NCBI RefSeq assembly: GCF_014281055.1 | Contig: NZ_JACRSE010000002.1 | Location: 558,001 to 622,000, forward strand | DNA length: 64,000 bases | Direction of reading: 5' to 3' | DNA from: Fluviispira vulneris | GTDB lineage: Bacteria > Bdellovibrionota_B > Oligoflexia > Silvanigrellales > Silvanigrellaceae | Shown: positions 49,806 through 55,843 of the stretch, piece after piece | Layout: each line of letters begins with the position of its first letter | Position numbering within the stretch: the stretch's first letter is position 1 | The notes under the pieces: model-generated | What the model saw: the letters and a program-made list of their open reading frames with translations, nothing else | Databases searched by the model: none | What the model was told of the DNA's origin: nothing | Translations under genes and position numbers: made by a program

Positions 49806-50594
49806 TCAATGAGCATAACTTTCATGCCATTTTCTGAGTAAGAGATAAGATATAAAGTGGAATAGACTGTAAATGACAACCCCTAATGCTGTGATTATAA
49901 ATAATGCTGCAAATAATTTGTCTGTTTCTAAATTGTATCCCGCCATTAATAAAATATACGCTATTCCTGATGCTTTTCCTCCTGTGCCTGCAATAAACTC
50001 AGCTGAAATTCCTCCTATTAGGGCCAACGCTCCTGAAATTTTTAATCCATTTAAAAATGAAGGTAGAGCCGATGGAATAAATAATTTTTTCAGAATAAAT
50101 GTATTTGAAGCACCGTAAATTTTAAAAATTTTGATCAACGAATTGTCCGTACTTTTGAGTCCAGAAAGAGTTGAAGAAATTATAGGGAAGATACATGCAA
50201 TCCATGCACAAATAACCAAGGTTAAAAAAGTATTACTTTTAAACCAAATAATTAATAATGGAATAATTGAAACTATAGGAGTTGTTTGCAAGATAACGAT
50301 AAATGGAGAGATAGCTTTGTCGAGACTTTTAAATTGAAATACACTGATCGCAATGAAAACACCAGACAGAATTGATAAAAAAATTGCTAGAAATGTTACA
50401 CTTAATGTAATTAATGTTGCATAAACAAAAGTTTTTAAATAGATTATAAGTGCGATAAATACATCGAGTGGAGCGGGGAGAAAATATTTTGGTATATGAA
50501 AAATAATAATAATACTTTGCCAACAAATAAAAATAACAATAAGAAAAATAAAAGGATAAATAATTGAGGAGATTTTAGATTTTATTTTAGACAT
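49806..50594 (-). CDS. ABC importer permease (SsuC/TauC/ThiX type)
   Basis: A 262-residue membrane protein with six or so helices. The EAA loop, IFKIYGASNTFILKKLFIPS, is the ATPase contact, and LKISGALALIGGISAEFIAG is typical of the nitrate/sulfonate/taurine/pyrimidine-precursor permeases. Its start overlaps the end of the ATPase gene by eight bases. With the ATPase and the divergent THI5-like binding protein it makes a complete importer. Confidence 0.85.
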   Translation of the reverse strand: MSKIKSKISSIIYPFIFLIVIFICWQSIIIIFHIPKYFLPAPLDVFIALIIYLKTFVYATLITLSVTFLAIFLSILSGVFIAISVFQFKSLDKAISPFIVILQTTPIVSIIPLLIIWFKSNTFLTLVICAWIACIFPIISSTLSGLKSTDNSLIKIFKIYGASNTFILKKLFIPSALPSFLNGLKISGALALIGGISAEFIAGTGGKASGIAYILLMAGYNLETDKLFAALFIITALGVVIYSLFHFISYLLLRKWHESYAH

Positions 50595-51321
50595 TTTGGT
50601 TTTCCAATATCTTACGGATTATGACACAATTATTATGAAATTCTTCCGAGTTTCTATAGTTTTTAATACTGGTTTTTTCTTTTTCAATTTTAATTTGACC
50701 TATAATTTTTCCAGGATGTTCAGAAAAAATATAGATACGATTGCATAAGGAAACAGCTTCAGCAATATTATGCGTAACAAATACACTTGTTAATTTTTTT
50801 GTTAAATATATTTCATATATTTCATCTGCGAGTCTTTCTCGCATAATTTGATCAAGAGCCGCAAATGGTTCATCCCAAAGTATAACCTCAGGATCTGTGA
50901 TGAGAGCGCGCGCTATAGAAGCACGCATTTTCATTCCTCCTGATAGTTCTCTTGGAAAATGTTTTCTAAATTTTTGCAAGTCTAATATTTGTAAATATTT
51001 ATTTACTTTTTCATCAATTTCTTTTTGTGGTGCATTCAAAATTTCTAGAGGTATTGCTATATTTTGTTCTAGATTTTTCCAAGGCATCAGACATGAATCC
51101 TGAAAAACAAACGCTGATTTTCTTTTTGTAGAATTATTTTTTAAGTTACCTGAAGATATTTTTTCTAGACCTGAAATCAGTGTGAGAAGAGTAGATTTAC
51201 CACAACCTGAGGGACCTAAAATTCCTATAAACTCACCTTTTTCAATTTCCATTGTCACATTTTTTAGTACAGTTAGATTTTTATATGTTTTACTCACGTT
51301 CTCTAATTTGATAAAGTTCAC
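50587..51321 (-). CDS. ABC importer ATPase (SsuB/TauB/ThiZ type)
   Basis: A 244-residue ATPase: GILGPSGCGKSTLLTLISGL (Walker A), FVFQDSCLMPWKN (Q loop), RELSGGMKMRASIARALI (signature), VILWDEPFAALD (Walker B) and VTHNIAEAVSL (H loop). The LMPW stretch is typical of nitrate/sulfonate-type importers. The start is GTG at 51321. It is divergent from the binding-protein gene. Confidence 0.9.
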   Translation of the reverse strand: MNFIKLENVSKTYKNLTVLKNVTMEIEKGEFIGILGPSGCGKSTLLTLISGLEKISSGNLKNNSTKRKSAFVFQDSCLMPWKNLEQNIAIPLEILNAPQKEIDEKVNKYLQILDLQKFRKHFPRELSGGMKMRASIARALITDPEVILWDEPFAALDQIMRERLADEIYEIYLTKKLTSVFVTHNIAEAVSLCNRIYIFSEHPGKIIGQIKIEKEKTSIKNYRNSEEFHNNCVIIRKILENQNV

Positions 51322-51382
51322 TTGTTATCTCTTTTTCAGGAGTGTTTCATTTAGCACAACATATTTCCATAGGATAATGTCA

Positions 51383-52414
51383 ATGAGAAAATATCTTAAA
51401 TCAGAATTTAGAAGTGTACCATATTTTATTTTGCTACTAATAATAGCAGGGATTGTTATTTATGTCCTAGGAGCAAAAAAAGAGAAAAAAATTCAAGAAA
51501 ATGATGAAAACGATTTATTTTCTTTAACACTTGGAACCGATTGGTTTGCCCAAGCGGAGCATGGAGGATTTTATCAAGCAGTTGCAGCAGGTATTTATAA
51601 AAAATATGGACTCAACGTAAAAATAAAAATGGGTGGTCCGCAAGTCAATGGATTACAGCTCCTCTTAGCTGATGAAGTACAATTTTATATGCCCAATTCT
51701 TATATGATGATAAGCGCAGCAAAACAAAAATTACCTCTAATCAGTGTCGCTGCTATCTTTCAAAAAGATATTCAAGTTTTATTAGCACATCCTCATGTTG
51801 GAAATGATACAATGGAGAGTTTAAAAAACAAACCTATCTTTATTTCTGCGCCCACAACGGCTTCAATCTGGGGATTTTTAGTTGGGCGCTTTGGCTATTC
51901 TGACAGCCAGAAAAGATCTTATTCCCATTCTTTAACCCCATTTTTACAAGATAAAAATTCTGTCCAAGAAGGTCTTTTAACATCAGAGCCTTACTTAATC
52001 GAAAAAAAATATGGTTTTAAACCTGTTACCTTGCTTTTGTCAGATTATGGCTTTTCTGGATATGGAGAGTTGATGACCACAACTCTAAAATTTGAAAGAG
52101 AGCATCCCGAAGAGGTTGGAAAATTTATCCAAGCATCAATTGAAGGATGGAGAAATTATCTAGAAAATCCCGTTTTAGGAAATGATCTTATCAAAAAAGC
52201 TAATCCAAATATGACAGATGATTTGCTAAAATTTGCTCATAATAAGCTCATAAGTGAAAAAATTTTAACAGGAGAGGATACAAATCAATTTGGAATTGGC
52301 GCGATGACAGATAAACGTTGGTCTGAATTTATGAATATGCTTATCAAATATCAAGTTTTTGATGAAAATGTAGATTATAAATCCATTTATACGTTGAAAT
52401 ATTTAAACAAATAA
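51383..52414 (+). CDS. NMT1/THI5-like ABC binding protein, membrane-anchored
   Basis: LGTDWFAQAEHGGFYQAVAA and IYKKYGLNVKIKMGGPQVNG are the signature of THI5/NMT1-like proteins that bind pyrimidine thiamin precursors, riboflavin or related compounds. YGELMTTTLKFEREHPEEV continues the match. The N terminus has one membrane helix (SVPYFILLLIIAGIVIYVLG) with no clear cleavage site or lipobox, so it may stay anchored. Start at 51383 has AGGA eight bases upstream; an ATG at 51377 is an alternative. No thiamin riboswitch is visible in the short leader. 343 residues. Confidence 0.82.
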   Translation: MRKYLKSEFRSVPYFILLLIIAGIVIYVLGAKKEKKIQENDENDLFSLTLGTDWFAQAEHGGFYQAVAAGIYKKYGLNVKIKMGGPQVNGLQLLLADEVQFYMPNSYMMISAAKQKLPLISVAAIFQKDIQVLLAHPHVGNDTMESLKNKPIFISAPTTASIWGFLVGRFGYSDSQKRSYSHSLTPFLQDKNSVQEGLLTSEPYLIEKKYGFKPVTLLLSDYGFSGYGELMTTTLKFEREHPEEVGKFIQASIEGWRNYLENPVLGNDLIKKANPNMTDDLLKFAHNKLISEKILTGEDTNQFGIGAMTDKRWSEFMNMLIKYQVFDENVDYKSIYTLKYLNK

Positions 52415-52777
52415 TTTATTTTGTTATATTTTTTCTAATAAATTAATATTAAAAAATAATTTTTTATATTCTTGTTAATTTATAATTTCTAAAATTTACC
52501 TTAAAATACCTATTAATAATATTATTTAAAAAATTAAATATTTTAGAGAGAATGTATTTATGTTCTTTTCTTGATTTTGTATATCATTTGAATTAACCAA
52601 GGATCATAAGAATTTTCTTATAGGTGTTTATTTGTTTAAAGTCTGTTTGTAATTAATCTTTAGAAAGGAATTTGAATTAAATAATTAGGTAAAAATTATA
52701 TATGTATATCTACTATTTTTAATTTTTAAAAATAGTTGTTTTTTTTGTGTTAAAAATTTAAATACTTAGGTGAAACC
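52415..52777. other. AT-rich gene-free region with a terminator
   Basis: These 363 bases hold no supportable gene. The left end begins with a weak A/T hairpin and a T run near 52415-52440; the right end holds the terminator-like hairpin at 52712. The rest is very A/T-rich. Confidence 0.5.
52712..52746 (+). terminator. Terminator-like hairpin before the CotH-NAGPA gene
   Basis: ACTATTTTTAA-TTT-TTAAAAATAGT is a perfect 11-bp stem followed by TG and eight or nine Ts. It lies 32 bases before the GTG start at 52778, far (300 bases) from the upstream gene, and may act as an attenuator for the gene it precedes. Confidence 0.6.
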
Positions 52778-55700
52778 GTGTGTTATGAAATTAAAATAAG
52801 AAAAATTTTAGTCTGTTCTTTAGCGATTTTACTTGTTTCTTGTGGTAAATTGCAAAAAAAAGAAATATTATTAAAAAATGCTAATACTTATTTCGTCCCG
52901 CATACAAATGCTAAAAGAAAAGTTTATATAGATAATAAGAATGGAATTATAATTGTTCATGGTTTGAAAAAAATCAGTGAACTTGAAAAAAATAAAGATG
53001 AAATTATATTTCAATATGAGTCAAATTATGATCTATATGTGAATAAGATCTTAATGAAAAACTCGATTGTGACCATAGCGGATATTTTAAGTGCTTATAA
53101 GAATGAATTGCCAATCGAAATTCCGATTCATATTAAGAATAAGGTAAACTCAACAGATGAAAAAGTTTTTCTATTAACTTTTTCCCGTTTGCCAATTTTA
53201 GAAATTAAAGAGAATAATATTTTAAAACATCCAGTAATAAGAAATAATAGTATTTCAATTACAAAATATAATGATGAAAATATTTTTAATGCTGACATAA
53301 AGATAAATATAAGAGGGAAGGGGAGTGTAAAAAACCCAAAATCTTCTTATGCGATCTATGGTGATGACAATTTTTCAAATTATTTGAAAGATAATTTGAA
53401 AATATACTCTAAATCGAATGAATATAGTTTGTTGTCTTCATACAATGACTCATCTTTTTTAAGAGAAAAGTTTGCTCACGATCTATTCAATAGACAAATC
53501 TTGGGTAATGAGATTCATGAAACCATTCGTATGCATTATGTAGATGTATTTATCGAAGGTGAGTACGTTGGGGTGTATGCTCTCATGAACACGCTCAATC
53601 CATCGGACTTAGTTTTTGAAAACAAAGATGAGAATAAATATTCGATGCTTGAAATGAATGCACAGAATCTTTACTCCATTAAAAAAAGTAATGAAAAATC
53701 ATTAAGCGAAGCATTGCTTGGTCAAAAAGTTGATTTTTTTAGTGAAGGAAAGTTACATAACAATGCTTCAGGTTTAGCTCCATTTGCGAATCGAAATGTT
53801 TTGTGTCACCCAGATTATGTTAATTTAATTGATAAAAAATATGGGTTTGCGTATTTATCAACGATATTGGCTTTGCAAGCGGTCGATAATATAACGAATA
53901 ATGTTCATTTAGCCATTCACCCAGCTTTAAGTAAAAGTGAATTATGGAATAAAGAACATATGTTCTTGCCCAATTTTAAAATATATTACATACCTTGGGA
54001 TCTAGATATGTCCTTAGGAGCAATGGGTTGGAAAAAAGAAATTGTATTTCAGTTTGACGTGAATAACTATAATAAAATATATAATTATAACGGAATATTT
54101 ACAAAACCTCCATATAATGTTCCGTTAGAAAATCAGGCAAGTCTTTTGACTTGTTATACAAGATCTTATGGAACTCATGTTAGCTTTAAAGATGAGTTTA
54201 ATAAATATTGGCTAGAAAATAAAGAACATTATAATGGACATTTTAGTAATATCCGCATTAAAAAAGAGTTAAGTGAAAATTTTAATATTTTAGATGAAAA
54301 TGGGGCTTATGCAAGGGAGTTTAAGCGTTGGTCATCCCGTTCAGGCAGTAAATTTTCTACTTATGATTTAAATCAATTGATGGGTTGGATAGACAACCGC
54401 CTTAGCTTTGTCGAAAAAGAATTTTTGAAAATTGATACAAAAGAGATTATTAAATATAAGAAAAAACAAAGCGTTCGTGATCACTCCAATATCAATGTTA
54501 TTCATTTTGACCCTAAACAAGTACAACTTTCTATAGAAACAAAAGAACATATCACTGGACAAAGTGATTCAAACTTTGATCGTAATATTTTTAATAATGC
54601 TGCATTAACAATAACAGATCTTTATGCACAAGATAAAAATAATATAGCCGGTCTTACAGGTGGTTTTTTTGAATACTGGTACAATGGAAAATTTGTGCAT
54701 TATCAAGATAACCATTTAGATGATAACGATATTAATAATCATTTTAAAGTATTTAATGACAGAATGATTCATACCTGTGATAAAGAAGGTTATTATCCCA
54801 AAGATGGTGTTGTTACATTACCAATTGGAATATTAAAAATAAATAATAAATGGTATACATCTGAAGAAAATTTATCAGATGTTGTTGGGTGGAATGAAAA
54901 AGGTGAATATATAATTGATAGAGTTAAAGTCGTTTGGGATGTTGTAACAGGGACAGGCACATCGCTTTTTAAAAATCTTAAAAAGATTGATTCAAATTTT
55001 GTTTTATCTTCGCCAAAAATAAATGTCTTTCGCTCCGATGCAATCGATCAAGATGGAAGTCCGGATTACATAAGTAAGAATATTACTCTAAAAAGAGAAA
55101 CTCAAAACATTGTGATCTACTTTGATACTTTTTCGGATAGAACCAGAACTCCAGATGACGGTTTAGAAATAATCGTAGAAAATAATTATATTCGAGAGAT
55201 TACTCATAAAGGGAATAACATTATACCTAAAAATGGTTTTGTCGTTTCTATAAGCAAAGAATATATAAAAAATAGCGAATTGATGAAAGAAATTGAAAAT
55301 CTACAGGTTGGCACACCACTGCACGCTATATATGAATATTTAGATGCTAATAATAAACCTACTAATATATTTGATAATATGACTTTTATTCGTGGTAAAG
55401 TTCAGGCTCTTGTCTTGAATAAGAAAACCGCTGTGGTTAAATCTGTAGGAAATATTCGTAATGTATTCATCGATTCTACACGGAAAGTAAAAAATCTTCC
55501 TCAATACCTTGATGTAGATTTTTATGGAAAAAAGCATCCAAGAACTGCGTTGTGCTTTAGAAAAGATCTAAAAAATGGAGATATTGTTGAATCTAAGTGG
55601 TCCTTGGTATTGGTCGATGGACGGCAAAGAACCTCCTTTGGCATGAGAATAAATGAATTATCCGATTATCTTGTCAATCATTTAAAGTGTGATGATGCTA

Positions 55701-55843
55701 TTAATTTAGATGGAGGAAGTTCAGCTAATATGATCGCGCATGGCTTAAAAATGAATGTCAGTGGCTCATGGAGAGGTTATTGTTCAGGAATACCAAGACC
55801 TGTTTCCGATGCGATTGTTCTTAAAGAAAAAAGCTCAAAATGA
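52778..55843 (+). CDS. Lipoprotein fusing a CotH-like kinase and a phosphodiester glycosidase (NAGPA) domain
   Basis: A 1021-residue protein with a lipoprotein signal (ILVCSLAILLVSCGK, lipobox Cys). Residues about 130-560 match the CotH spore-coat kinase fold: INIRGKGSVKNPKSSYAIYG, SYNDSSFLREKFAHDLFN, VDVFIEGEYVGVYALMNTLN and YIPWDLDMSLGAMG. Residues about 600-1021 resemble NAGPA (phosphodiester glycosidase): GLTGGFFEYWYNGKF near 627, then WSLVLVDGRQRTSFGM and AINLDGGSSANM near 976. CotH domains phosphorylate proteins; NAGPA cleaves GlcNAc from phosphodiesters. The start is GTG with AGGTGA just upstream. Catalytic function is inferred from motifs; the partner and substrate are unknown. Confidence 0.8.
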   Translation: MCYEIKIRKILVCSLAILLVSCGKLQKKEILLKNANTYFVPHTNAKRKVYIDNKNGIIIVHGLKKISELEKNKDEIIFQYESNYDLYVNKILMKNSIVTIADILSAYKNELPIEIPIHIKNKVNSTDEKVFLLTFSRLPILEIKENNILKHPVIRNNSISITKYNDENIFNADIKINIRGKGSVKNPKSSYAIYGDDNFSNYLKDNLKIYSKSNEYSLLSSYNDSSFLREKFAHDLFNRQILGNEIHETIRMHYVDVFIEGEYVGVYALMNTLNPSDLVFENKDENKYSMLEMNAQNLYSIKKSNEKSLSEALLGQKVDFFSEGKLHNNASGLAPFANRNVLCHPDYVNLIDKKYGFAYLSTILALQAVDNITNNVHLAIHPALSKSELWNKEHMFLPNFKIYYIPWDLDMSLGAMGWKKEIVFQFDVNNYNKIYNYNGIFTKPPYNVPLENQASLLTCYTRSYGTHVSFKDEFNKYWLENKEHYNGHFSNIRIKKELSENFNILDENGAYAREFKRWSSRSGSKFSTYDLNQLMGWIDNRLSFVEKEFLKIDTKEIIKYKKKQSVRDHSNINVIHFDPKQVQLSIETKEHITGQSDSNFDRNIFNNAALTITDLYAQDKNNIAGLTGGFFEYWYNGKFVHYQDNHLDDNDINNHFKVFNDRMIHTCDKEGYYPKDGVVTLPIGILKINNKWYTSEENLSDVVGWNEKGEYIIDRVKVVWDVVTGTGTSLFKNLKKIDSNFVLSSPKINVFRSDAIDQDGSPDYISKNITLKRETQNIVIYFDTFSDRTRTPDDGLEIIVENNYIREITHKGNNIIPKNGFVVSISKEYIKNSELMKEIENLQVGTPLHAIYEYLDANNKPTNIFDNMTFIRGKVQALVLNKKTAVVKSVGNIRNVFIDSTRKVKNLPQYLDVDFYGKKHPRTALCFRKDLKNGDIVESKWSLVLVDGRQRTSFGMRINELSDYLVNHLKCDDAINLDGGSSANMIAHGLKMNVSGSWRGYCSGIPRPVSDAIVLKEKSSK

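Follow-up and report, generated by a model that had tools for sequence, protein, structure and literature searches.

A conserved predicted lipoprotein of Fluviispira joining a CotH kinase-like domain to a NAGPA glycosidase-like domain

CotH kinases that act outside the cytoplasm occur widely among bacteria, and we know of few substrates for them beyond spore coats; the same applies to bacterial NAGPA proteins, for most of which we know of no substrate. The closest described relatives of the protein presented here are the CotH spore-coat kinases (PF08757; CotH of Bacillus subtilis and CotH of B. cereus, 5jd9/5jda) and the NAGPA/DUF2233 glycosidases (PF09992; the vertebrate uncovering enzyme, 3ohg, 5h3k and 6ozd). 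CotH resembles Fam20C and retains equivalents of residues D166, N171 and D184 of PKA (PMC12189002), and B. subtilis CotH is inactivated by substitutions of D228 and D251 (PMC7821199). Surface or secreted proteins in which NAGPA is joined to a second enzymatic domain are known, with either a ShfP-family calcineurin phosphoesterase (PMC11488536) or, in toxins, prok-TelC (PMC12419801). Our protein shares this general architecture, but the described cases have a phosphoesterase or lipocone enzyme as the partner domain, not a kinase fold. CotH and NAGPA in one protein constitute a new combination of known families, and a limited literature search retrieved no description of such a join.

The fusion protein is encoded by the 3.6-Mb genome of a bacterium placed in the same GTDB genus as Fluviispira multicolorata (Silvanigrellaceae, Bdellovibrionota), within the 64,000-nucleotide stretch of DNA that was analyzed as a whole (the window); its features are listed in Table 1. 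Using Pfam with curated cut-offs (23.8 bits for CotH and 25 bits for NAGPA), only these two families were called in the protein, and NCBIfam gave no match to it. The initial annotation had proposed a single very large lipoprotein with both domains, which was borne out by the uninterrupted reading frame, the Pfam calls and the sequence LVSC ending at residue 22. Its description of the surroundings stood in part. The 5′ flank is A/T-rich, as claimed (15% G+C), whereas on the downstream side the 3′ end of the gene touches a convergent cytidylate-kinase-like gene, with zero spacer. The terminator-like hairpin reported before the gene is present, but its energy is ordinary for A/T-rich DNA and not above chance (z -0.94, equalled by 29 of 200 shuffled sequences), and it is not among the terminators reported by a terminator scan. 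As Rfam also gave no match, an RNA element or terminator 5′ of the gene was rejected.

Table 1. Coordinates of the fusion gene, its parts and the upstream hairpin within the window.
Feature	Position	Strand	Basis
CotH-NAGPA fusion lipoprotein, 1021 aa, GTG start	52778..55843	+	Open frame, Pfam, relatives
A/T-rich hairpin upstream of the gene, 11-bp stem followed by a U-rich run	about 52712..52736	+	Fold z -0.94
Predicted signal peptide of a lipoprotein, with lipobox LVSC at its end	52778..52843	+	Sequence; S21 and C22 invariant in alignment of fused proteins
Fast-evolving N-terminal region (residues 23-170) without a known family	52844..53287	+	No Pfam match
CotH kinase domain, residues 171-550	53288..54427	+	Pfam, alignment, profile-profile match
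NAGPA phosphodiester glycosidase half, residues about 590-1018	54545..55831	+	Pfam; alignment with 15 stand-alone NAGPA proteins; AlphaFold2; Foldseek (5h3k, 6ozd, 6u11, 3ohg)

Fused genes were identified in four of the eight genomes of the genus, as six open copies without internal stops, and are absent from the other four; an artefactual join or frameshift read-through is ruled out by these copies. The genome of F. multicolorata (G005) carries one syntenic copy (62% identity to the window protein) at the same site as in the window, bordered by an NMT1-type binding-protein gene on one side and the cytidylate-kinase-like gene on the other, and two further genomes (G002 and G003) each carry a tandem pair of fused genes (896-912 aa) at another site. 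Family-level searches for CotH and NAGPA covered Bdellovibrionota. CotH occurs in 24 and NAGPA in 18 of 58 genomes of this group. Many of the 50 genomes outside the genus have one or both families as separate proteins, and in none of them do the two share a frame or a contig, which agrees with the earlier view that the pairing is unusual, here in the sense of rare within Bdellovibrionota. On the same result, a precursor that arose by adjacency of the two genes was rejected. When 84,980 species genomes were scanned for patterns specific to the window protein, the sole full-length relative was that of F. multicolorata; unrelated CotH and NAGPA domains may have fused independently in other phyla. 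Transport of the gene as mobile-element or phage cargo was also considered and rejected (no match in 72,556 plasmids and 50,697 phage records), a full-length profile confirmed no relative in viral contigs, and PADLOC gave no match to a known defence system.

The N-terminus consists of a basic and hydrophobic signal followed by LVSC-G-K, and the Ser-Cys pair of the lipobox is identical in four aligned relatives. According to the lipobox rule, Cys22 is expected to be lipidated, and we infer that the protein would be located in the outer membrane, held by a lipid anchor. Comparison with the G005 orthologue revealed 44% identity for residues 23-170, whereas the enzymatic halves reach 65%. The corresponding dN/dS values are 0.69 for residues 23-170, 0.18 for the CotH half and 0.23 for the NAGPA half (dS of the two halves is near saturation, which makes their ratios rough), and therefore both halves are under purifying selection and the N-terminal region is much less constrained.

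The Pfam match to NAGPA covers residues 795-1015 (57.1 bits, E = 3e-15; positions 2-168 of the 169-position profile). Stand-alone NAGPA lipoproteins of the genus (400-430 aa) match the C-terminal half of the fusion in two separate stretches, so the region from about residue 590 is regarded as part of the same domain. In comparison with NAGPA/DUF2233 glycosidases, the fusion has a large insertion between motifs 1 and 2, which is partly common to these stand-alone lipoproteins. The following motifs were distinguished: (i) TGGFF (residues 627-631), (ii) HPRT (920-923), (iii) DGR (947-949), (iv) NLDGGSS (976-982) and (v) R1007; residues R922, G948, G955, D978, G979, G980, S982 and R1007 are retained. 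Conservation of the signature residues is found for HPRT, DGR, NLDGG-S and the C-terminal Arg, but not for the Asn of the NGGFF motif, which is replaced by Thr (Thr627) in all six fused copies and is Asn in 15/15 aligned stand-alone NAGPA proteins. This replacement could lower or change the glycosidase activity. The residue preceding R1007 also differs, being Glu in most stand-alone proteins and another residue in the fused copies. An AlphaFold2 model of this half, built from a 34-sequence alignment (pLDDT 75, pTM 0.80), matches the fold of solved NAGPA proteins, in line with the original assignment: Foldseek ranks 5h3k (E = 4e-18), 6ozd, vertebrate NAGPA and 3ohg first (prob 1.00), and nothing else had E < 0.001. 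The best viral structural match, BFVD A0A5B8RLV0 (Iridovirus Liz-CrIV, 1040 aa, E = 7e-7), is annotated as a "putative serine/threonine protein kinase"; going by this annotation, it is a lead that a join of kinase and NAGPA may have arisen independently elsewhere.

For the CotH half, Pfam matches residues 176-544 (60.7 bits, E = 2e-16) over positions 1-321 of the 322-position profile, and profiles of fused and canonical CotH proteins can be aligned co-linearly along 367 columns (profile-profile E = 4e-16, prob 98.7). The order of the domain is that of the CotH spore-coat kinases, with the pattern RG..K..D..R..G-x-Y..D-x4-N..WD-x-D..R represented by RG179-180, K188, D224, R229, D370-x4-N375 and W407-D408-L-D410. 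Residues R179, G180, K188, D224, G265, Y267, D370, D408 and R513 are invariant across all ten sequences aligned with canonical CotH, and R229 and D410 nearly so. D370, N375 and D408 align as the equivalents of D166, N171 and D184 of PKA, the D-x4-N spacing being the same as that of D166 and N171. The window copy therefore has an intact set of kinase catalytic residues (RG179-180, K188, D370, N375 and D408), and the catalytic and metal residues whose loss had been raised earlier as a possible objection (D370, N375 and D408) are kept. At the level of sequence, the fused CotH branch is very divergent from canonical CotH, with about 14-19% identity in the alignment. CotH was called by hmmscan in one of four fused relatives (a genome-wide search scores these relatives at 22-49 bits), and a profile of the fused branch together with a CotH-only protein (L007) did not retrieve the solved structure 5jd9 at E < 1, which a mixed CotH profile including the window protein retrieved at E = 4e-18. 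The full-length AlphaFold2 model of the fusion is poor (pLDDT 32). The fusion further differs from the spore-coat kinases in being a predicted lipoprotein of a Gram-negative non-sporeformer, joined to NAGPA; no Ser-rich CotB/CotG-like substrate was recognized near the gene, and the fusion has a paralogue with lost catalytic residues (see below). The CotH-only protein (L007:1492-2988, contig 4 of G002; 498 aa), a lipoprotein that falls in this divergent branch, also keeps the catalytic residues, and its gene adjoins a glycosyltransferase-like gene of the polyprenol-phosphate-mannosyltransferase type, as judged by eye.

The presence of both domains, their kept catalytic residues, the NAGPA fold, the conserved and constrained fusion and the lipobox together argue for two working halves. 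We tentatively favor the reading in which both are enzymatic and act extracytoplasmically on phosphate-linked groups, with activities, substrate and coupling predicted from these features. The NAGPA half would hydrolyze the bond between a sugar-1-phosphate and a group X, leaving a free phosphate on X, and a kinase fold of the CotH/Fam20 type would transfer phosphate to a protein or glycan hydroxyl. The common outcome would be surface phosphomonoesters, either added directly or "uncovered" by removal of a capping sugar.

The tandem genes of G002 and G003 bear directly on the kinase part of this proposal. The first copy (a) in each pair keeps the full kinase catalytic set, as do the window copy and its G005 orthologue. 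In the second copy (b; L015:5238-7940 in G002 and L016:8840-11530 in G003), R179 is changed to T, G180 to D and D370 to N, while the NAGPA motifs are kept, apart from the Thr627 common to all fused copies. Having lost the RG pair and the catalytic Asp, copy b is, by its sequence, probably a pseudokinase beside a possible kinase. It follows that a working kinase is not needed in every copy and that kinase activity cannot be the sole conserved function. The pair recalls, by analogy only and as far as sequences tell, the secretory kinase Fam20C and Fam20A, the latter being a pseudokinase and regulatory partner of the former. ATP is normally unavailable outside the cytoplasm, and this, together with the degenerate paralogue, leaves the putative kinase function less well supported than the putative glycosidase function. 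By analogy with Fam20A, the glycosidase half might be the only working enzyme. The CotH-like half would then be a pseudokinase-like module with a binding or regulatory role, to which a nucleotide or substrate docks. The state of copy b, the ATP problem and the strong divergence of the fused CotH branch all favor such an arrangement, which we consider possible but less likely than two working halves, as retention of the full catalytic set by the window protein, its G005 orthologue and copy a would be unexpected if catalysis were dispensable.

Directly upstream of the tandem pair lies the gene of a small lipoprotein with an Asp-Pro-Tyr repeat (L016:4854-5456; PYDPYDPYDPYDPYNPY repeat). The pair is followed by the gene of a protein of 804 aa (L016:11742-14156), which has weak DUF7910 similarity and repeated segments and is a possible partner or substrate. 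A tract of about 7.5 kb (L016:7500-15000 compared with L015) is 96-100% identical between G002 and G003. It begins close to where the kinase and glycosidase halves of the first copy meet, whereas identity in the preceding DNA is about 70-90%, a pattern indicative of recent recombination or transfer between the two. This tract crossing the locus in sister species would suit, as would the fast-evolving N-terminal region, a surface adhesin or structural factor whose CotH half recognizes a partner surface and whose NAGPA half trims glycans. Analogies exist in the fungal CotH2/3 proteins, which bind host GRP78 (PMC9973265), and in the CotH proteins that are accessory parts of cellulosomes, for which structural roles have been suggested (PMC12484212). 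Since the catalytic residues are retained and Pfam finds no adhesive repeat domain, we judge such a role to be improbable, and editing by two enzymatic halves remains our preferred reading.

The neighbors of the fusion gene in the window include genes of an ABC permease, an ATPase and the NMT1-type binding protein. In G004 (L072), the CinA-like and cytidylate-kinase-like genes are separated by 59 bp, and hence the block composed of the ABC transporter genes and the fusion (window 49806-55843) is missing there; within the genus, the cargo at this site varies. The transporter neighborhood and the absence of the whole block from G004 would both accord with an uptake cargo module, in which the fusion is a catabolic enzyme scavenging phosphate or sugar from environmental phosphodiesters. 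To our knowledge, binding proteins of the NMT1/THI5 type are as a rule not phosphate or sugar importers, and the fused genes of G002 and G003 are located elsewhere, without ABC transporter genes, so we regard this explanation as very improbable.

Judged from the sequence, the protein is thus most likely a lipoprotein of the outer membrane and an editor of phosphate-linked sugars at the surface, with the glycosidase as the better supported of its two predicted functions. A more specific form of this proposal, in which a bifunctional extracytoplasmic phospho-glycan editor both adds and uncovers phosphate and the pseudokinase sister copy acts as its regulator in some species, seems to us unlikely in its entirety. 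The fusion ties CotH kinases and NAGPA glycosidases together, and its conservation suggests a substrate common to both halves, such as a glycan or protein of the surface that is phosphorylated or phosphodiester-linked. Natural tandem pairs, in which one copy is catalytically intact and the other broken, render the question testable. If true, the phospho-glycan editor would do at the bacterial surface what Fam20-type phosphorylation and the uncovering enzyme do in the Golgi.
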